From the NCBI RefSeq assembly GCF_029168945.1, contig NC_083605.1:33369280-33433279 (forward strand): DNA of 64,000 nt, written 5' to 3'. This stretch comes from Cannabis sativa (taxonomy: Eukaryota > Streptophyta > Magnoliopsida > Rosales > Cannabaceae). The notes beneath the pieces are model-generated. The model did not search any database and was not told where the DNA came from. It saw only the letters and a program-made list of their open reading frames with translations. Every line of letters starts with the position of its first letter. The stretch's first letter is position 1. Position numbers and translations under genes: made by a program. Positions 45,863 through 61,674 of this stretch are shown one piece after another.

Positions 45863-48800
45863 TGTAACGCCCCAATATTTTGTCTTATTTTACAAAATAC
45901 TATTTTTGATGCATTAATTAAAAAGATTCAAAGATGTTTGGAAATACACAGTGGGTTTTACAATGAATATGCAAAAAGGTGAATGATCATTCATATTAAA
46001 ACAAAATAAGTAGTTGAGTGTATTTTTCTTAAAAAAAAAATAAATTTGCAACATCCCACTGAGCTCAGATTACTTTATTATAAAAAAAAAAAAAAACCAA
46101 GGCTCCACCGGCGTTCTAGACCGTTTGCTCGTCCATAGCCCCTCGCAGTATACATACCAGAACTAACCCAGCTCATCAAACTTACATTCAATGTTCCCTG
46201 TCTATTGCCTGTAGGGGGAAAGTAAGGGGGGTGAGCTAAAAGCCAGTAAGGAAATGCTTAACATACAATAGCATTCAATACACTAAACATATCTTAAAAT
46301 TCACAATAATACGATTCTTTATAACATTAACGTATCCAGTCTTAACAAAATTATATGCCTTAGCTCATAATTGTAATTTAAATAACTCAAGATATGGAAA
46401 GCTATATCATATACCATATATTTGTACTAAACGAAACCATTACATATATGTAGGGATCACAACCCTGACATCATACTCATAGCACAATCATAGCAATAAC
46501 ATATAAAAATTATTTCAATCATATCATGTCTTTACCATAACATTGGCATATCATAGCCATTACCTACATAACCTGGGCCTAGCCTGGCCCTATAATATCC
46601 TGGGCCTAATCTGCCCATATAATAACCTGGGCCTATGTAGCCCTACCATTGTTATAGGATAGGGTATCTCTATATTCAACAGTAATATCACTGTATCATA
46701 CCCCACCATAACAATGTCATACACGAATCAGACAAATGTAGGGTAGGGTATCTCTACATTCAACGGCCTTACCCCGTATCATACCCCACCATGGCCCCTC
46801 ATTTGTACCTGAGACGTTAGCATACAACATACAACACACCACATACATCATACAACATACAACATACAAATCGTACCAACCATAATATATTTCGATTCAC
46901 AAACCCATATTGTGTCCATACCACACATTCTCAGTACTATATACACATTCATAATAATACATCACAAATAATATTTCAATAAACAAATAATTTAAATTAT
47001 GTAGTTCAACACATAAAAACTACTTAATTTCCTTACCTCAAATCCCGCTGCTTAAGACTTGTTATCTCGTCACTACTACCTATAATAAGACATGGGTCAA
47101 GGCCCTAATATTAAAATTCGTACTCTTACAATACAGAAGAAAGATCACTATTTTTGACCAACAACTACACTAATTCAATAAAAGTTTTCTTCATAAACAT
47201 TATAGGAAATTCCATTATCTTTCCAATGATATAAAGATCATTAAAAATGGATTAAAACCGAGGGAGTTATGATTGTTTTACTAAAACTATTTCTGAGAAG
47301 GAATATAGAGTAACGAAGTATACGACTTAGAAAAAATACAAACTTTTTGTATTGAAAGGTTCAGAACTAGAAGACAACATCCTCATGAAAGTTTTAGGAA
47401 ATTAAATTTCCTTTCCAATGATACCAAAATCTTTAAAATTGGAATTATATTGAAAGAGATATTGCAGTTTTACCAAAACAGTTTTGGAAGAACAAGATTC
47501 AAGAAACGAAGCAAATAATACAGAAGGAAAAAAACTTTTCGACATAGTATAACTCCGAATTAACGAAATGTTTCTTCATGAAACTTATGGAAAATTGAAT
47601 AAGCTTTGAAACCATATATAGATCATTAAAAATGGATGAGAATTGAGAGAGTTATGGTATTTTAAGTGAAAGTACTTTTTCTGGGAATATGAAAAAAATG
47701 ATTTACAACACTATCAGAAAGATGATAATTTTCGGTATAGAATATCACCGAAATGGTGAATAGTTTCTTCATAAAAATTTTATATCATTGAATAAGCTTT
47801 CTAACGATACAAAAATTGCTAGAAACAGATCAATATTGAGAGAGATATGACTATTTTACTAAGACAATAATTTTCAGAAAAAAATAAAAAAACGAGATTT
47901 TTTAACCTAAAAGTTCACAACAATAAGTGGAAGAACTCTCTTACCTCTTGATGACTCTTCTTAATCAGTGCTAGATCTTGAAATCTCAAATTATTAGAAT
48001 GGTGATGATGATCTCAATCTTATGTTGATGAAAATCATGAGTGTTGTTTGGCGAAGAGAACGAAACAAGAAGGAAAATTATAAATATTTGATAGATAGCG
48101 AGATGAATAACTTGTAGGGTATAGAATTTTATGAGTGTCTTCTCTAAGAATTGTGTTCAGGGTGAACGAAAGAGATTGAGATTGAGTTTTATTTTTCTCA
48201 GGGTTAGAGGCTCTGCATATTACGTATCAAGAATGTGATAGATTTAGGTTTTATAATCTAATTAAACCTATAAAAGAAAATAATAAAATAACCCCTATAA
48301 TCTGATGCTAATTTAACTCTAAATAGAATAATTAAATAAAAATCTTATTTGTTAGATATAAGTTTTAAATTTGAATTTTAAAACTTAGGGTTTCTATACT
48401 AAACTTAACAAGTTGTCACTTTGTACCTTAATTTTGACCACAAAAAATTTAAAATTACGATAAATCTATTTCTATATAATTTATAGATCTTTGAATTATC
48501 TTTCCAACGCCACTAAAATCACCTCAATCCAAGCTCTAGAACTCCAGATATGATCGTTTTAGTGAAACAGTTTTTAATCCTGCGAATTTATCCAAACCTA
48601 CGAATTTTTAACATTAATTCTATAATAATGTTATTTGACATCACTTATACCATTAATTAAAATCCACTAAATAATTTATAAACCCTAATAAACTTTCATA
48701 TTGGGCTATAATTAAATGATTACCTACCTTGTAAAAATACCATAGTATTTTACTTTCGCAGTTAATATAACTTTAACTCTCTCTAGAAAATTGGTACCAT

Positions 48801-48918
48801 AATCTAAGCAATAATCTCAACTCACTAACAACACAAATATATAAGATAATTATCCTCACACAATTAATATCCCAAGTAGAAAAAAAAAATTAAATACTAT
48901 TTTAATCTTGATATTACA
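45863..48918 (-). repeat. 3' LTR of element F, 3056 bp
   Basis: It runs from TGTAACGCCCCAATATTTTG to TTGATATTACA. It includes repeats of CCTGGGCCTA (46570-46640) and CATACAACATACAAC (46810-46870). The frame content is negligible. Confidence 0.82.
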
Positions 48919-51900
48919 TTCTACCCTCCTTAAAAGAAATTTCGTCCTCGAAATTTAACTACCAACACTCGGGGTGTTGAGTCTTCATGTCTTTCACCAC
49001 TTACTGCATTACCTCATTATCTACCATATATATGGACCCAATAAATATGCATTTAACCTATGTCTTATTGGTCAATCCATAACACATAAAATATACACAA
49101 CTTAATTAAGTATTATTATTTCTCTATACATTACTTAAATACCAAAATGTACTCCATTACAATAACGTACATATACATGCTTTAAATACATAAGTTTTGC
49201 AATAACATGCTCGTAATTTTATAAAAATTTCTTCTCTTATGAACATCCTTACATGTCATTAAGAGTTAAACTATTTATTCTCTAATGAACATCCTTACAT
49301 GCCATTAAGAGTAAAACTATTCATTCTCTCATGAACATCCTTACATGTCACTTGAGAACACATTATATAATACAAAAATAACAAACACAAAGAGTAGGGT
49401 AAAAGATCTTATGCAAACTTCTCTTTATTCCTTAGTTGAATGTTATTACCTATAAAAATCTTACTTCTCTACTTGATTTTCTACTATAAGGCTACAATGT
49501 CATTCTTTCAATTTCATAGATGTTACTCACTCATCGATAGACACTTGTTCCATGACACTTGGAAATAAACATTTAAGCTCTTTAAAAGGTCTTCTATATA
49601 TAAATATTTAATGATCCATTTCGACCACCTTTTTGTCTAACATTCACTTCTTGATATCCTTTATCCATGTATTCATTGCACTTGTCACGCCTTCACATTT
49701 TCCTAGGTAACTGCTGTCGGTTTCTTTTGTAGTCTCTTTCTTGTATCACTCTATTGTATTTTCTTTGCTAATCTCTCCTATGGTGCTTGGTCCTCCATTA
49801 CCCCCTTCAATCAAGTTGACTTGATTATGAGATTAGCTAGTTTTCTATACTAACTTCTATCTACTTTGGTATTATCTTGCTATAGTGGTGAACTTTGAAT
49901 CTGTAATGCCAATAGATTCTGATAGTTATGTTCAATGATTGCTTCTTCTAATATACTAGCCATCTGAGGTATCACATAACTTCATACTTATGATAGCATT
50001 GATTATTCCAGCCATATTCATGCCCTCTATATTGTAGCCTTCTTTAATTCACCAAAAAAATATCTCAACTTCTTAATTGTACTTCTAAGACTTTTAAATC
50101 TCTTAAACATACATTCCAATACTGATTATTTACTTAAGACTATACCATATATGTATTAAAACATAGAAAGCACACTAATAACCCCTTTAAAATAAGTTCA
50201 ACCCTACCATGGCTTATCGTAGCCTAACTATTTATTATCTGTTGACTATTAACAATAAGTCAACCATACCAATCTCATAATGTATTGTTTATCCAAGTTA
50301 TCAGGGTAAGGATACTATATATATAATTGGCAAACCATGTCGAACAGACCTTACTCTGTCCATCACTATTATACCTCCTATACCCCCACTTGTATTTGAT
50401 TTACTACTAGAGACTCAGTATTTATAATTCCTTAGTGAGGGATCCTTAACTCTTATTTTCTAAACTACCTTTAAAAAATAAATTTATAATTCACTTAAGC
50501 ATTTTATTCCATATTTGAATGCAATCATGTTATCAATATATCCATCCCTTTCCTTTTAAGTTCCTCACTTTCAATTAGATAAACTTTAGTTATTTTCCAG
50601 ATAATGGCTATTGTCTCATTCCAACTTAGATGTGTTCTTCTAGTATTCTCCATTACTAGCCCTCTAGGTCGGGAAAAATATCTATATTTATAAAAATTCA
50701 TTCCTCTCAATAATTTTAACTTTTGTCAGATCCATTGTCATTCTCTTCTCGAGCGATGTAAGGCGTAGAAATACCATCACTTTTAATCAAAGTTGCACTC
50801 TTTGTGATTTTTTTTTTCTTAGTTGACTCTTATGATGACACTCCAACATACTTATACTATTGTCCATAAAGCAAATTGTGAGTGGATTGTAGCTTTGTTT
50901 GCTTACGATGTGCCTTGAATCCATTTACGTTTCATGAGAATTTTCTAATCCCAATACTTCTCAAAGACTCGTATGGCCCTTGTCATGCCATGAAATTCTT
51001 TAAGATACGTCACTTTGGCCTTATATGTGTCTCACTTTTCCCATGTCTCTAATATTAGGGAGTCTTTCCTAACGTTTTCTCCTCAAGCTATGCACTACCC
51101 TTCTATTGTTGTGTCGATGGGTATGTAGAATCTAAGTATGTCACTCGTGAAAGTTAATTTCTCTTCTTCCTCTTTTGAATTTGTGATCTCCTCTCTATAG
51201 CTGTTTGTTGTACCACCCACCATAAATTTGTATTCACAGTGTATTAGTTGTGCAATTGTGACCTGTTCCAAGTAGTTGTCCTCTTGTTGTCTCTTCTTCA
51301 TGTTGTACCCAAATTGTTAGTCGTGCCTAGACCTTCTTAGTCTTTCTCCTTTGAAAATGTCACTGTCGAAACCATGCGCATTTTACTCTATTGTCTCCTC
51401 CACCAAGTAGATGACCTTGAGTTTAAAGTTTACAACTTTCCTTCGGTAATCTTTTATTTGTTAATGCTCTGTTTATCTCTTAGTGTTTAAGATGCCTTCA
51501 TAAGCTATTGCCTCAAGCTATTTTATCATGTCTCTTTCTATCTTCTTATTTTTGGATTCTATTCAGCACACTACACTCCTTTCTATATGATGGCATCGTC
51601 CTCTCCTGACTCATTTCTAAAACAGACTTCTCTCTAAAGTCTTTGCATACACTATTCATACTTCTTACCATCTAACTTAGGAGTGTGTAACTTATAGAAT
51701 ATCCAACAAGATAGTACTTGCTCCTTAAAGATCTATTCTTTCATCCTTCTTAATAAGTGGGTTTCGTAAAATATATTGTCCCAGTCTTGTATAACGTCTA
51801 CTATTCTAAGTCATCCCTACTTCCTATATGTTGGGCTTCCATTCATAGCTAGGTGCAGAGACCGCTTCTTCAACCATTCATAGATAGGTGAAAATATATG

Positions 51901-52635: not shown

Positions 52636-53424
52636 ATATGCCTTAGCTCATAATTGTAATTTAAATAACTCAAGATATGGAAAGCTATATAATATACCAT
52701 ATATTTGTACTAAACGAAACCATTACATATATGTAGGGATCACAACCCTGACATCATACTCATAGCACAATCATAGCAATAACATATAAAAATTATTTCA
52801 ATCATATCATGTCTTTACCATAACATTGGCATATCATAGCCATTACTTACATAACCTGGGCCTAGCCTGGCCCTACAATATCCTGGGCCTAATCTGCACA
52901 TATAATAACTTGGACCTATGTAGCTCTACCATTGTTATAGGATAGGGTATCTCTATATTCAACAGTACATCACTGTATCATACCCCACCATAACAATGTC
53001 ATACACGAATCAGACAAATGTAGGGTAGAGTATCTCTACATTCAACGGCCTTACCCCGTATCATACCCCACCATGGCCCCTGATTTGTACCCAGGAATGT
53101 CAATCTGGGCCATTTTCGCGGGCCGGGCCGGGCCCCCGGCCCGACGGGCCGACTGTGGCCCGCATTATTCGGGCTTTTATCGGGCTTCGGGCTTGGCCCG
53201 GCCCGGCCCGGTATATATTATTTCGGGTCGGGCCCGGCCCGGCCCGGTTTTAAATATTAAAAAAAAAACTAAATCCCTAAAAAAAAATCCCAAATTCTAA
53301 ACCTAAATCTCAGTTTCAATTTCGATTTCAATTTCTTCCTAAAAAAAAGGGTAAGAAAAACGTGAACGAAAAAGAAACGTTTCGAAAAAAAAAATTGTAA
53401 TGGGAATTAGATGAGAATTATTAC

Positions 53425-53507
53425 AGTAAAGGGTGACGAATTTCGGAGACCCAAGAGCCCCAATGTCTTTGACGAACGCCTCTATACCGCTGTTGAGGTC
53501 TAGCCAT
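53425..53507 (-). pseudogene. Captured exon 1 of an ERF003-like AP2/ERF transcription factor
   Basis: From the ATG at 53507 the minus strand reads MARPQQ followed by [20 protein letters not shown] and a split Leu codon, the first half of the DNA-binding AP2/ERF domain. This wording, including the MARPQQ start, is that of the ERF003/SHINE-like group of plant ethylene-response factors, nuclear proteins that bind GCC-box-like promoters. At 53424 the exon meets GTAATA, a splice donor at the position where these genes have their intron; part of that intron appears to follow. The rest of the domain and protein is missing. No stop or frameshift occurs in the 27 full codons, so capture or insertion is recent or the parent is conserved. 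Without exon 2 it cannot make a working factor. Confidence 0.88.
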
Positions 53508-53720
53508 GGAGGTTTAATAATGTCGAAACGTTTTTTGGTCAGTTCGGAGTGATTGAAATGAAGGTGTTTGATTTATTGCCTGAGAGAGATTTTGAACACT
53601 TTGGTTTTGTATAGCCAAAGAAGTGACTGTAGTATGTAGTGGAGAGGGGAAGAGAAAATGGGCAATGGGGATTTATATAACCGCTTCTTCCAGCCATTAT
53701 GAGGGGACCCATTGGGTTTT
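53508..53720 (-). promoter_or_regulatory. Captured ERF promoter and 5' leader with TATA box
   Basis: Upstream of the captured ATG, minus strand, is a pyrimidine-rich leader of about 135 bp and TATATAAAT at 53679-53671, about 165 bp before the ATG. Composition differs from both the GC-rich ends and the AT-rich LTR, supporting its origin with the gene fragment. Confidence 0.62.
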
Positions 53721-53895
53721 TTTTTTAAAAAAAAAATGATTTATTATTAAATATTAAATTGTCGACAAAGGAGGAAAAAATAATGTAAAATAAAAAATGT
53801 TTCTTTTCTAAGAGAAAATAAAAGAAAATGGTATGTAGTAGTAAGAAATGGTATGTATTAATGATTATACAGGCAGTCCTAAACAGGGGTCCAAA

Positions 53896-53989
53896 ACAAA
53901 AAGCACACGGTTTCTATATGCAAAATCTATTCATATACTAATACAAAAAGCACACGGTTTCTATATGCAAAATCTATTCATATACTAAT
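53896..53989 (+). repeat. Perfect tandem duplication, 2 x 47 bp, inside the hAT element
   Basis: ACAAAAAGCACACGGTTTCT plus 27 further bases occurs at 53896-53942 and again at 53943-53989. Confidence 0.92.
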
Positions 53990-56252
53990 ACAAGTCTTTT
54001 TAGAAAGAAAAAAAAAAAAAAAAAAAACCGGGTCGGGCCTAACCCGGCCCAATTATCTCGGGCCGGGCTTGACCCGCTAGGCCAAAAGAAGGAGCCGGGT
54101 CGGGCCGGGCCGGGCCAAAGTGATGTCGGGCCGGGCCGGGTTTGTGGCGGGCCGGGCCGGGCCCGGCCCGACTGACATTCCTATTTGTACCTGAGACGTT
54201 AGCATACAACATACAACACACCACATACATCATACAACATACAACATACAAATCGTACCAACCATAATATATTTCGATTCACAAACCCATATTGTGTCCA
54301 TACCACACATTCTTAGTACTATATACACATTCATAATAATACATCACAAATAATATTTCAATAAACAAATAATTTAAATTATGTAGTTCAACACATAAAA
54401 ACTACTTAATTTCCTTACCTAAAATCCCGCTGCTTAAGACTTGTTATCTCGTCACTACTACATAAGACATGGGTCAAGGCCCTAATATTAAAATTCGTAC
54501 TCTTACAATACAGAAGAAAGATCACTATTTTTGACCAACAACTACACTAATTCAGTAAAAGTTGTCTTCATAAAAATTATAGGAAATTCCATTATCTTTC
54601 CAATGAAATAAAGATCATTCAAAATAGATTAAAACCGAGGGAGTTATGATTGTTTTACTGAAAATATTTCTGAGAAGGAATATAGAGTAACGAAGTATAC
54701 GACTTAGAAAAAATAAAAACTTTTTGTATTGAAAGGTTCAGAACTAGAAGACAATATCCGCATGAAAGTCTTAGGAAATTAAATTCCCTTTCCAATGATA
54801 CCAAAATCTTCAAAATTGGAATTATATTGAAAGAGATATTGCAGTTTTACCAAAACAGTTTTGGAAGAACAAGATTCAAGAAACGAAGCAAATAATACAG
54901 AAGGAAAATAACTTTTCGACATAGTATAACTCCGAATTAACGAAATGTTTCTTCATGAAACTTATGGAAAATTGAATAATCTTTGAAACCATATATAGAT
55001 CATTAAAAATGGATGAGAATTGAGAGAGTTATGATATTTTAAGTGAAAGTACTTTTTCTGGGAATATGAAAAAAACGATTTACAACACTATCAGAAAGAT
55101 GATAATTTTCGGCATAGAATATCACCGAAATGGTGAATAGTTTCTTCATAAAAATTTTAGATCATCGAATAAGCTTTCTAACGATACAAAAATTGCAAGA
55201 AACATATCAATATTGAGAGAGATATGACTATTTTACTAAGACAATAATTTTCAGAAAAAAATAAAAAACCAGATTTTTTAACCTAAAAGTTCACAACAAT
55301 AAGTGGAAGAACTCTCTTACCTCTTGATGACTCTTCTTAATCAGTGCTAGATCTTGAAATCTCAAATTATTAGAATGGTGATGATGATCTCAATCTTATG
55401 TTGATGAAAATCATGAGTGTTGTTTGGCGAAGAGAACGAAACAAGAAGGAAAATTATAAATATTTGATAGATAGCGAGATGAATAACTTGTAGGGTATAG
55501 AATTTTATGAGTGTCTTCTCTAAGAATTGTGTTCAGGGTGAACGAAAGAGATTGAGATTGAGTTTTATTTTTCTCAGGGTTAGAGGCTCTGCATATTACG
55601 TATCAAGAATGTGATAGATTTAGGTTTTATAATCTAATTAAACCTATAAAAGAAAATAATAAAATAACCCCTATAATCTGATGCTAATTTAACTCTAAAT
55701 AGAATAATTAAATAAAAATCTTATTTGTACCTTAACAGGTCGTCACTTTGTACCTTAATTTTGACTACAATAAAGTTAAAATTACGATAAATCTATTTCT
55801 ACATAATTGATAGATCTTCGAATTATCTTTCCAACGCCACTAAAATCACCTCAATCCGAGCTCTAGAACTCCAGATATGATCGCTTTAGTAAAACAGTTT
55901 TTTATCCTGCGAATTTATCCAAACCTACGAATTTTTAACATTAATTCTATAATAATGTTATTTGACATCACTTATACCATTAATTAAAATCCACTAAATA
56001 ATTTATAAACCCTAATAAACTTTCATATTGGGCTATAATTAAATGATTACCTACCTTGTAAAAATACCATAGTATTTTACTTTCGTAGTTAATATAACTT
56101 TAACTCTCTCTAGAAAATTGGTACCATAATCTAAGCAATAATCTCAACTCACTAACAACACAAATATATAAGATAATTATCCTCACACAATTAATATCCC
56201 AAGGAGAGAAAAAAAAAATTAAATACTATTTTAATCTTGATATTACATCAAG

Positions 56253-57060: not shown

Positions 57061-57720
57061 TCAAGCTGGAGCATAGATGTTAATCATGCCCAGCTCGTTA
57101 CAAAGATAATCAACCCGCACTCCATTCAAAGCCTTTGTAAAAATATCTCCTAGTTGTTCTCCGGTCTTCACAAATCCTGTGGAAATCAGACCTTGTTGAA
57201 TTTTCTCACGAACAAAATGACAATCAATCTCAATGTGCTTAGTTCGCTTGTGGAATACGGGATTTGAGGCAATATGAAGAGCAGCTTGATTATCACACCA
57301 TAATTTTGCTGGAATAGAAGTCTCAAACCCGAATTCAGTCAAAAGCTGATAAATCCATATTACCTCACACACAGACTGGGCCATAGCTCTATATTCTGAT
57401 TCAGCACTGGATCTAGATACAACATTTTGTTTCTTACTCTTCCAAGAGACCAGATTGCCCCCAACAAATACACAATATCCTGAAGTGGATCGTCTATCTA
57501 CCTTGGAGCCTGCCCAATCTGCATCAGAAAAACACTCAATCTGGGTATGTCCATGATCCTTGTAAACTATACCTCGTCCTAGTGCTCCTTTCAAGTAACA
57601 TAAAATTTGCTCTAATGCTGCCCAATGATGAATTGTTGGAGAAGACATGAACTGGCTGATAACACTAACCGGGAATGCAATATCTGGACGAGTCACAGTT
57701 AAATAATTCAACTTTCCAAC
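57061..57720 (-). pseudogene. Copia element I pol: end of RT and RNase H
   Basis: This continues the pol frame after the TGA at 57721-57723. It opens VGKLNYLTVTRPDIAFPVSV, the conserved RT C-terminal block. RNase H follows: CFSDADWAGSKVDRRSTSGY (first catalytic Asp), SSAESEYRAMA (Glu), LWCDNQAALHIASNP (Asp) and KRTKHIEIDCHFVREK (His/Asp). It ends GMINIYAPA and TGA at 57063-57061, immediately before the purine tract. The domain is full length with all active-site residues and no further stop. RNase H degrades the RNA of the DNA-RNA hybrid during reverse transcription. Confidence 0.9.
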
Positions 57721-59058
57721 TCACCTGCGATATTTCTCAAGATCTTCAAATGGTTTCCCATCACGTGTAAGATGCACAGCTGGATTCATTGGAGCATTAC
57801 AAGGTTTTGCTCCCAATTTTCCTGTCTCAGTTAGCAAATCAAGTACATACTTTCTTCGAGACAGAAAAATACCTTGTTTACTCCGAGTAACTTCAATCCC
57901 CAAGAAATACTTGAGCTCCCCTAAATCTTTCGTGTTAAACTGGGTGTGAATGAAAGACTTAAGGGATGAGATGCCTTCAGTATCATTTCCAGTAATAACG
58001 ATGTCATCAACATACACCACTAAAAAAATGATACCAACAGTTGATCTTTTATAAAACACAGAATGATCTGACTTACTTTTCAACAAATCAAACTTCTCAA
58101 CAGCCTGACTAAATTTACCAAACCAAGCACGAGGGCTTTGTTTCAATCCATACAAAGATTTGCGAAGATGACAAACTCGCCCTAACTCCCCCTGAGCAAC
58201 AAACCCAGGAGGTTGCTCCATATATACTTCTTCCTCAAGATCTCCATGAAGAAAAGCATTTTTAATATCAAGCTAATGCAAAGGCCAATGATGAGTAGCT
58301 GCCATGGAAATGAACAGTCGAACAGATGTGAGTTTAGCAACAGGAGAAAAAGTATCACAATAGTCCACTCCATAGGTTTGAGCATAACCCTTGGCAATAA
58401 GACGGGCCTTTAAGCGAGCAACTGTGCCGTCTGGATTGAATTTAACTATGAACACCCATTTACACCCGATGGCCTGTTTTCCGGAAGGTAAATCAACCAA
58501 GACCCAAGTACCATTCGCAACCAAAGCATTCATCTCTTCTATCATTGCAGCAAGCCAACCAGGATGAGACATCGCTTCTCGAACAGTTTTAGGAATAGTG
58601 ATAGAATCAAGAGAAGCAATAAAATAACAAGAAGAAGAGGAGAGATGATTATAAGACACAAAAGAAGTAATAGGAAAAGTACATTGACGTTTACCTTTAT
58701 GTAGTGTAATGGGAAGATCATCTGAGATTTCCGGATCTGATGACGAAGATGCAAGTGCAGGACATGAAACAGGAGGTGGAGGAGGGGGGCGCCTGGTGTA
58801 CACTATAGGAGGCCGAGGGAGTGGTGGAGGTGGTAGGGGTGGTGGAGGTGTAGACATTGTGGGGGTGACGACCGAGGCAGGTGAAGGAACAAGAGACCCG
58901 CCAGAACATGTATCAGGTGCATAGGATGTGACAGAATAAACCAACAAATCATCATCCTCCCCGTGACTAGTAGAAGTAGTGGAAGATGAAAAATAAAGTG
59001 TATTTTCTACAAAGGTAACATCAATAGAAACAAGATATTTGTTGAGATCAGGACAATA
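57721..59058 (-). pseudogene. Copia element I pol: integrase tail, Pro-rich linker and RVT_2 reverse transcriptase
   Basis: After the TGA at 59061-59059 the frame continues with [11 protein letters not shown] and a Pro-rich linker (58920-58770). The RT start follows: [40 protein letters not shown] and [24 protein letters not shown] at 58275-58273 interrupts the block just before LDIKNAFLHGDLEEEVYMEQ, where copia RTs usually have Gln; the change from CAG would be one transition. The active-site YVDD is present (VVYVDDIVITGND), as is SLYGLKQSPRAW. The block ends at the TGA at 57723-57721, after LEKYRR. The reverse transcriptase copies element RNA to DNA in the cytoplasmic particle; here it is broken twice. 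Confidence 0.9.
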
Positions 59059-60235
59059 TCACCTATACCCTTTCTGAAGACGAGAATAACCAAGAAAGAC
59101 ACACTTTAGTGCCTTAGGATCTAATTTGGTGACAGATGGACGGACATCGCGAGCAAAACAAACACTGCCAAATACTCGCGGAGCAACTGGAAACAATGAC
59201 TTATTAGGAAAAAGAATTTTAAATGGAATTGCACCATTAAGAACAGAGGATGGCATGCGATTAATAAGAAAGCATGCCGTGGAAACTGCATCGGCCCAAA
59301 AAGGTTTAGGAACTTTCATTTGAAACAAGAGAGCACGTGCAGTTTCAAGAAGATGTCTGTTTTTACGTTCTGCAACACCATTCTGAGGTGCCGTATCAAC
59401 ACAAGAAGTTTCATGAAGCATGCCATTAGAGGTCATATAAGATTGAAATTGAGCAGACGTGTACTCTTTGGCATTATCACTTCTCAAAGTACGAATAGAT
59501 ACATTAAATTGAGTTTTAATCTCAGCACAAAAAGCACAAAATATAGAAAACAACTCAGAACGATTTTTCATTAAATATAACCGAGTTACACGAGAATAAT
59601 CATCCACAAAAGTAACAAAATACCTGAATCCAGGTTGAGACAAAATAGGAGAAGGACCCCAAACATCAGAATGAACTAACTCAAAAGGAACACTAGCACG
59701 TTTATGGACACGAGGACTCAAACTAACACGATGATGTTTGGCAAACTGACATGACTCACAATCTAACGAAGATAAACTACTATATTGGGGACACAATTTC
59801 TAGCAAAGGAAGGGATGGATGACCTAGACGACAATGAGCCTCAAAAGCGGAAGCAACACTCGAACAAGCAATAGAGGTTGGCGGAAGTGGGTCAAGAACA
59901 TACAAGCCACCAGATTCATGTCCTTTACCAATAATCTTCTTCGTCATAAGATCCTGAAACAAACAACGATCAGGAAAGAATGAGATGCAACAATGTAAAT
60001 TACGAGTGAGTTGACTAACAGAAAGCAAATTAAAGGATAAATCAGGTAAATGTAAGACTGATGACAAAGATAGCATAGGTGTAGGAACAATAGTGCCAGA
60101 TCCAAGAACAGAAGCTGTTGACCCATCAGCTAAGGTGACAACAGAAGTGGGACTGTGAGACTTAAAAGTGGAAAAGAGACGGGAATTACCTGTCATATGA
60201 TCTGTGGCACCAGAATCAATGACCCATTTTGAGGA
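59059..60235 (-). pseudogene. Copia element I pol: protease, GAG-pre-integrase and integrase core
   Basis: Just after the gag stop is SSKWVIDSGATDHMTG, the aspartic protease active site. The GAG-pre-integrase zinc region has HCRLGHPSLPLL and DCESCQFAKHH (HHCC), but a single-base frameshift near 59790 separates its two halves. The integrase core then shows the D,D,E triad: ELVHSDVWGPSP, RTLRSDNAKEYTS and NGVAERKNRHLLETARALL. It ends at the TGA at 59061-59059 after LGYSRLQKGYR. Intact proteins cut the polyprotein and join element DNA to the chromosome. Confidence 0.9.
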
Positions 60236-61240
60236 TTAGGAAAGAAGGCATGCATTAGAGTTACCTAAATCATCAATCGCAGTGACAGAAGAAGATGAAG
60301 ACTTAAGTGTTTCCTGATACCTTGAGAACTTGGCAAATTCATCAGCAGAAATAAGGACCGATTTGTCAGATGCATCACTAGTGCTGGCAATATTGGCAGA
60401 GTGTTGTTGTCGATTCTTAAACTGTAACTTCCTACACTCAAACTTGGTGTGGCTTGGTTTCTTACAATAATTGCACATGATGCTCCCAGAACTTTGTGTG
60501 CGGTTATCAGGTCCTTGTGAATTACCTCCTTTAAATCCACTTGGAGTAGAGTTCCTTTCCGGTGCAGAATTATTACGACTCACCAAGGCGCTATTAAGAG
60601 GAGTTGAAGAGGTAGTCTCTGTGCGAAAAACACGAGTAAACACATCTTGTAAAGAGGAGACATCAGAACCAGAGAGAACTTGTGACTTTGCAGAGTCAAA
60701 TTCAGATGAGAGTCCTGCAAGAAAACTCATAATAGCCATCTGTTCTCGTTGGCGCTGTTGAACTTTTACATCAGGACTAAAGGGTAATAGCACATTAAGT
60801 TCTTCATACGTTTTCTTGAAAGCCATAAAATAATTCACAAGAGACTTATCTTGTTTCTCCGCGCGATAAAAAGCTTTGCAAACATCATATATGCGAGATA
60901 TGTTGTCTTTGCCAGAATACAAAAACTCCAAGTAACCCATTAGTTCTTTAACCAATTCACAATGATTAATCAAACTAATTACCTCATTATCGATAGAATT
61001 TCGAATTTGAAGGAACAAGCGAGCATCCTCACAGAGCCATATTTTCCTTGAATCGTTTGTTTCTTCAGGAGGATCGTCAGTCAAGTGATCATCTTTGTCA
61101 ATACTCCTCAAATACAGTCGAATCGTCTTACTCCATTCCAAATAATTCGAACCAATCAACTTATGGTCCGTGATTTTAGACATCACGAGAACCACATCAG
61201 AAACAACAATTGATTTCGAATTTGATTTTTTCTCTGCCAT
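60236..61240 (-). CDS. Copia element I gag (open, 334 aa)
   Basis: I chose the ATG at 61240-61238 (MAEKKSNSKSIVVSDVVL), because upstream residues of the longer frame overlap leader sequence and the MAEKK start suits this gag family. The N-terminal gag domain has LIGSNYLEWSKTIRLYLRS (near residue 35) and KIWLCEDARLFLQIRNSID. The middle has YDVCKAFYRAEKQDKSLVNY and MAIMSFLAGLSSEFDSAKSQ. Near residue 258 is a CX2CX4HX4C zinc knuckle, CNYCKKPSHTKFEC, that binds the RNA. The frame ends in TAA (60238-60236) directly before the protease, so in this copy pol could be made only by readthrough; close relatives usually continue in frame. The protein would form the particle shell. Confidence 0.9.
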   Translation of the reverse strand: MAEKKSNSKSIVVSDVVLVMSKITDHKLIGSNYLEWSKTIRLYLRSIDKDDHLTDDPPEETNDSRKIWLCEDARLFLQIRNSIDNEVISLINHCELVKELMGYLEFLYSGKDNISRIYDVCKAFYRAEKQDKSLVNYFMAFKKTYEELNVLLPFSPDVKVQQRQREQMAIMSFLAGLSSEFDSAKSQVLSGSDVSSLQDVFTRVFRTETTSSTPLNSALVSRNNSAPERNSTPSGFKGGNSQGPDNRTQSSGSIMCNYCKKPSHTKFECRKLQFKNRQQHSANIASTSDASDKSVLISADEFAKFSRYQETLKSSSSSVTAIDDLGNSNACLLS

Positions 61241-61674
61241 AATCTCGAAACCAAAAAATTGACCGAAAAAGGAAGAGAGCAAACTCAAAGGAATAGATAT
61301 CCAAACACAAAGAAGACAAAAGTATCAAACCACAAAATGCGAAGAACCGCCGAAAACCGAAGCTAGGAGGACGAGAACGGAGCAGGAGTGGGACGGGCGT
61401 CGACCGCCACCGGAGAAGACGCCGGACGCGCCCTCACGCGCCGGCGCGTGGGATGACCGACAGCGGCGAACGACGGCGCGTGGGCCCCACGTGCGGTGAA
61501 TCTGGACGTCGGACTTTTGGGTTTTACAGTCCGGCGGCTGGGCAGTCCTCCTATGTGGGCGGTGAGAAAAAATTTTCACTCCAAATAGGGTTTTCGAAAA
61601 ACAACCCTAAACTCAAACCCTAATATTTTTTTTTTCAGAACCCTTATTTCGAATTTCGAATTTTGAATCACAAT
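61241..61674 (-). other. 5' leader of element I, GC-rich
   Basis: The leader between primer site and gag has a marked GC-rich block (61345-61560) with CGCC and GGCG words, unlike the AT-rich surroundings. The frame 61579-61325 there is probably not a gene. Confidence 0.6.

Follow-up and report, generated by a model that had tools for sequence, protein, structure and literature searches.

A non-autonomous hAT element of Cannabis sativa that carries the front end of ERF003, from its upstream region into the first intron

The stretch of DNA analysed here, referred to as the window (64,000 nucleotides, G000:C5:33369280-33433279 of a 770-Mb Cannabis sativa assembly), contains a short transposable element with the front end of an ERF gene inside it, which raises the question of where this front end came from, how it entered the element, and whether it has any role in its present position. 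The boundaries of the element are well defined (Table 1). Its termini are CAGGAATGTCA and, on the opposite strand, TAGGAATGTCA, no transposase is present, as no frame of at least 100 aa was listed inside 53092-54183, and it lies in one LTR of a retrotransposon of which the sister LTR is empty. When the element and one copy of the duplication are removed, the joined flanks are identical to positions 46618-47018 of the sister LTR at 393 of 401 aligned columns without a gap at the insertion point, and TTTGTACC is present only once in the sister LTR (46802-46809). Direct comparison therefore bears out the earlier sequence-only reading, which had placed here a 1092-bp element that is flanked by an exact 8-bp duplication and missing from the sister LTR. 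The two LTRs differ by 51 mismatches in a 2569-column alignment, and the minus strand of the piece adjoining the left LTR resembles the end of a Gypsy polyprotein; the probable orientation of the host retrotransposon is therefore minus, which is also that of the ERF fragment. Elsewhere in the window (57061-61288, minus strand) there are frames which by eye resemble a Copia retrotransposon polyprotein. An explanation in terms of an RNA family was rejected, since Rfam gave no match at the gathering threshold anywhere in the window.

Table 1. Coordinates of the element, its insertion site and the captured ERF003 stretch (positions in the window).
Feature	Position	Strand	Remarks
Non-autonomous hAT (Pack-hAT) element, 1092 bp	53092-54183	-	Ends, family, empty site
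8-bp target-site duplication, left copy, TTTGTACC	53084-53091		Exact; single at the empty site of the sister LTR
8-bp target-site duplication, right copy, TTTGTACC	54184-54191		Exact
Left end of family type (element 1-238)	53092-53329		11-bp TIR, GGGCCGGGCC-type subterminal repeats, A-rich tract
Right end of family type	54004-54183		A-tract, GGGCC repeats, TIR
Retrotransposon LTR hosting the element	52636-56248	- (probable)	LTR-pair alignment
Sister LTR with empty site	about 46353-48919	- (probable)	Empty site 46802-46809
Captured ERF003 stretch (element 250-912)	53341-54003	-	Match to parent G000:C1:47243378-47243988
Coding part of exon 1, ATG to splice donor, 83 nt	53425-53507	-	Identical in four genomic copies
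TATA-like box to start codon, 164 nt without ATG	53508-53671	-	Includes captured leader
TATA-like box, TATATAAA	53672-53679	-	Same in parent
8-bp insertion	53689-53696	.	In all three element copies, not in parent
47-bp tandem duplication, captured upstream region	53893-53986	.	Double in three element copies, single in parent
A8 tract at capture junction, candidate microhomology	53341-53348	.	Also in parent intron
11 bp between family DNA and ERF003 stretch	53330-53340	.	Supplies predicted acceptor AG on minus strand
Predicted 86-nt intron	53339-53424	-	Captured donor and intron body; acceptor AG external to ERF003 stretch
Predicted second exon, element DNA	53269-53338	-	Ends 50-aa fusion frame; prediction only

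The origin of the insert could be traced to one gene on C1. Element positions 250-855 match this parental locus with 97% identity, a second piece (61/61) extends the match to 912, and the first alignment with the parent has 592 identical columns out of 611, with 4 mismatches and 15 gap columns. On the parental side the capture is a contiguous block of 611 bp that begins 445 bp ahead of the ATG and ends 14 bp short of exon 2, inside or adjacent to an A8 tract; it comprises ERF003 upstream DNA, the leader, exon 1 and the greater part of intron 1. In the parent gene a 97-bp intron separates the two exons, and the spliced product of 191 aa has an AP2 domain and is 100% identical to the annotated Cannabis sativa ERF003 (191 aa). 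On the minus strand of the element the ATG (53505-53507) is followed by 28 codons and then by a GTAATA donor; the 28-residue piece on its own gave no Pfam or PDB-sequence match at E up to 1, so that domain searches were rejected as a route to its identification and it is through the DNA match to the parent that the piece is assigned to ERF. The capture of promoter, leader and first exon from an ERF003-like gene, as first suggested from the sequence, is hence supported by the 611-bp match, and a TATA-like box, the leader, the start codon and the splice donor described on the minus strand are indeed present. The limits originally given to the captured stretch (53425-53720) were too narrow, as homology extends beyond the coding exon into the upstream side, the leader and the intron, but it does not continue past the element: the match to ERF003 stops inside both ends.

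We searched the whole genome with the first 606 of the 663 bases of the insert (all 13 first-look candidates scored, 20 rows; simple repeats skipped), and only four lengthy matches came up, namely the window copy, the ERF003 parent and, at C2:63.55 Mb and C1:75.54 Mb, two sister copies with a deletion; a donor element for the window copy was not found in this search. Two loci on C10 match at 84-85%, over 81-167 and 81-143 of the 606-base query, and a C10 paralogue was rejected as the source of the capture because the match is confined to the coding exon. These loci could be taken to mean that the similarity reflects a conserved AP2 exon, or else that the element is an assembly chimera, but the match to the parent spans non-coding DNA on both sides and there are three separate copies with derived changes in common, and we consider either explanation scarcely credible; chance or domain-only similarity was rejected on the basis of the parent alignment and the whole-genome search. 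Part of the ERF003 upstream region, at about 53718-53769 (query about 378-429), gave a further 14 short matches in the genome at 84-90%, several of them in tandem.

The three element copies have in common the 47-bp tandem duplication, the 8-bp insertion and one substitution, none of which is present in the parent, and these derived changes most simply indicate a single capture event. Divergence from the parent is low, as the window copy has 4 mismatches in about 596 ungapped columns; in a wider alignment which includes homopolymer and border columns, the differences from the parent are 6/606 for the window copy, and 14/522 and 8/522 for the sister copies L010 and L011, respectively. Both sisters share a deletion of element positions 205-324 and have lost the end of the intron and the acceptor region, and they also have about 3 kb of left flank in common (98.8% identity over the stretch including the element, with 478 bp at 100%), from which it follows that they represent one insertion plus a segmental copy. 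Neither has a matching target duplication: there is a break in the right end of the C2 copy, while the C1 copy has complete ends flanked by unlike 8-mers, which might be due to irregular transposition or to a later rearrangement. The segmental copy between C1 and C2 breaks off inside the hAT right end. Because the sisters lack the duplication and share their flank, clean transposition of the captured stretch is seen for the window copy only.

The element is one of many members of a hAT family in which the ends are conserved, the interiors are varied, and long members contain an open transposase frame, as judged from the sequences recovered. A genome search with the element gave at least 53 matching pieces (40 of 222 candidates scored). 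From 20 stretches a first set of 16 loci was obtained by removing L009 (the parent), L015 (refetched at greater length as L029), L018 and L026, and 13 of these 16 have exact 8-bp duplications; L010 and L011 do not, and L022 would be the fourteenth if, on our own reading, its end is placed 2 bp outward. A further 16 regions yielded nine exact duplications, one with a single mismatch, one with unmatched flanks and five without a complete pair of ends. After exclusion of L030, L034, L035, L040, L042 and L043, which have no matching duplications, 27 elements were compared, and over their first 160 bp the 26 others agree with the window copy at 143-158 positions. The TIR pair of the family is TAGGAATGTCA and TGACATTCCTA, with the 3' 11-mer retained in 24 of the 26 other elements; the mismatched first base of the window copy (C) is private to it, all 26 others having T. 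By our own count the interiors fall into 11 groups, as defined by stretches of at least 80 bp.

Five long members (L029, L031, L033, L036 and L037) are 4.6-4.8 kb in length and have exact duplications, and transposase frames were read in three of these five (L029, 630 aa; L036, 677 aa; L033, 677 aa). The L036 frame, the only one used for a Pfam search, contains zf-BED, hAT-like_RNase-H and Dimer_Tnp_hAT domains, and matches the Hermes transposase by sequence. Together with the 8-bp duplications and short TIRs, these long relatives uphold the initial classification of the element as hAT-type. The transposase frames of the 4.8-kb elements L029, L033 and L036, all with exact duplications, are closely similar, and the family may have been recently active. 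We rejected L028 (G000:C1:28.74 Mb) as an autonomous element, since its long frame (1045 aa) is by eye a LINE-type reverse transcriptase; this frame lies in about 3.2 kb of inserted DNA that interrupts an L024-like hAT element, and a 16-bp overlap suggests the target duplication of the insert.

ERF003 is not the only gene of which this family carries a part. The interior of L019 and of its near-copy L020 (G000:C5:57.73 and 57.91 Mb) joins 669 bp matching C8 (99%) to 103 bp matching C7 (99%), as traced with all four candidates scored. The part derived from the C8 gene comprises upstream DNA, the leader and some 175 codons, which continue in frame into a new short tail from C7; the resulting chimeric frame of 195 aa is open, matches LEA_2 and has a TATA-like stretch upstream. 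A protein search with this chimeric frame at 1e-40 returned seven rows, of which the best was NDR1/HIN1-like protein 10 of hop (85% identity, 90% query coverage); Cannabis does not occur among the three rows with a name, the other four being nameless, so that the search gave no sign of the chimera being annotated. As L019/L020 also carries upstream DNA, the leader and the first part of a gene, it weakens the view that capture of a promoter plus exon 1 is unusual. The interior of L017 (G000:C9:47.86 Mb) combines pieces matching C7 (90%) and C4 (95%), the ends of which overlap by 4 bp (40 of 70 candidates scored), and these matches may be relatives of the donors and not the donors themselves. 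Another sister element, L023 (G000:C1:34.15 Mb), contains an ABC2_membrane exon, by eye of a PDR-type transporter.

With the parent, the insert, a family with conserved ends and transposase frames, and other interiors derived from two chromosomes, the element can be classed as a Pack-hAT, and the account which we consider likely is that 611 bp of ERF003 were captured once by template switching during repair, that the element was later moved in trans by a transposase of the family, and that the ERF003 stretch is now a passenger. The parent, the extent of the capture, the shared derived changes, the duplication, the empty site and the long relatives can be read from the assembly itself; for the steps that connect them, we infer that a hAT element was broken, that its repair would have switched template into the front end of ERF003 on a single occasion, and that the resulting element would then have been mobilised by its own family's predicted transposase. 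Alternatively, two hAT elements may have flanked the front end of ERF003 and the block between their outer ends may have left as one unit, a model which has been argued for Pack-TYPE elements of all DNA superfamilies in rice and maize (PMC8903248). In the one genome analysed, however, the parent borders show no hAT remnant or footprint, and the two-chromosome interiors of L019 and L017 would need extra steps, which makes this model an unlikely one for the Cannabis element. Template switching is favoured by these two-chromosome interiors, by the parent ERF003 being uninterrupted at both borders of the capture, and by the A8 tract at one junction, although in A-rich surroundings such a match could be fortuitous. 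The right junction has no clear microhomology in the alignment of copy and parent. Nor is the left one a clean switch between two known templates, because the 11 bp at 53330-53340 match neither the parent nor the 26 other elements and also gave no match in the genome search; the DNA to the left of it, up to about 53329, is the last part of the family-type left end, and is found at one other locus (C1:22372989, 98% over 45 bases).

The same junction is what gives the window element a distinctive feature, a predicted swap of the splice acceptor. Read on the minus strand, the captured T-tract runs straight into AG and G that do not belong to the ERF003 stretch, and this AG is predicted to replace the lost acceptor in the parental phase: splicing at this position would keep the phase (HPLLK) and give a 50-aa open frame, while the unspliced frame has a stop after 28 codons. 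If the captured promoter works, the predicted product would be a fusion peptide of 50 residues, in which the beginning of the AP2 domain is joined to a basic tail.

It could be argued that the element is a functional chimeric mini-gene, with transcription from the captured promoter and splicing at the junction leading to a half-AP2 peptide that modulates or competes with ERF003 or its kin. The retention of a TATA-like box, leader, start codon, exon 1 and donor would fit this, as would the AG after the T-tract in the parental phase with its 50-aa open frame and the identity of exon 1 in all four copies. The capture is young, however, with only 4 mismatches in the alignment to the parent, so that identity of exon 1 is expected without selection, and selection on the captured stretch is not inferable at such divergence. 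Since both sisters have lost the intron end and the acceptor, and the fragment has no second AP2 part and no Pfam match, a functional mini-gene appears very doubtful indeed. A related and broader view, in which the hAT family would act as a shuttle for promoters and first exons and the mobile half-AP2 mini-gene would feed chimeras or interfere with its parent, is in our opinion very unlikely, but if true, each landing could bring a complete ERF003-style promoter, a start codon and a splice-ready first exon. Somewhat better, though still rather unlikely, is the suggestion that the silenced element is a source of siRNAs from the ERF003 stretch, which would act on the promoter or transcript of the parent. 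This would be helped by 611 bp of near-identity including upstream DNA, and by the presence of several copies, one of them within a retrotransposon LTR, but among the 25 listed of 46 inverted pairs near the element, those touching the capture are short A/T-tract matches, and hence no ERF003 hairpin is evident. Most likely, the front end of ERF003 is at present a passenger, carried along with the transposon and not itself selected for any function.

What makes this case valuable is its completeness, together with the acceptor swap predicted at the junction. It is unusually complete in that the parent, borders, derived changes, empty site, sisters and likely source of transposase are all found in one assembly, and the two-chromosome interiors make template switching and the fusion of neighbouring insertions testable against each other across Cannabis genomes. 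Should the captured promoter be active, the element would be a concrete example from a crop of a hAT transposon spreading the front end of a regulatory gene.

Gene capture of the Pack-hAT kind is already known in plants, and our literature search found no paper on the Cannabis hAT family, which is not proof of absence. In the maize Ac element, too, the 11-bp TIRs differ in their outermost base (C/T), and the duplications are likewise of 8 bp; the Cannabis family differs from Ac/Ds in TIR sequence, and both of its ends normally begin with T. In the western clawed frog a multicopy Pack-hAT was reported, and template switching with microhomology has been proposed in the same work; here the genome is that of a plant, and the order of break, switch and excision is indistinguishable. 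Pack-MULEs also capture gene fragments, some of the derived genes having two or more parents, and MULE TIR promoters are said to drive the interior (PMC3310237, PMC4858842). Unlike these Mutator elements, the Cannabis element has short hAT TIRs and 8-bp duplications, and its capture brings its own TATA-like box. The Pack-hAT (Pack-TYPE) elements of rice and maize are likewise non-autonomous hAT-superfamily elements with TIRs, conserved ends and a host-gene fragment inside, and the published account of plant Pack-TYPE elements favours fusion of neighbouring insertions (PMC8903248). Compared with these, the Cannabis family stands out by long members with an open transposase frame, by an insert made up of upstream DNA, leader and exon 1, and by two other interiors that each have two donors; the parent gene shows no sign of paired elements.
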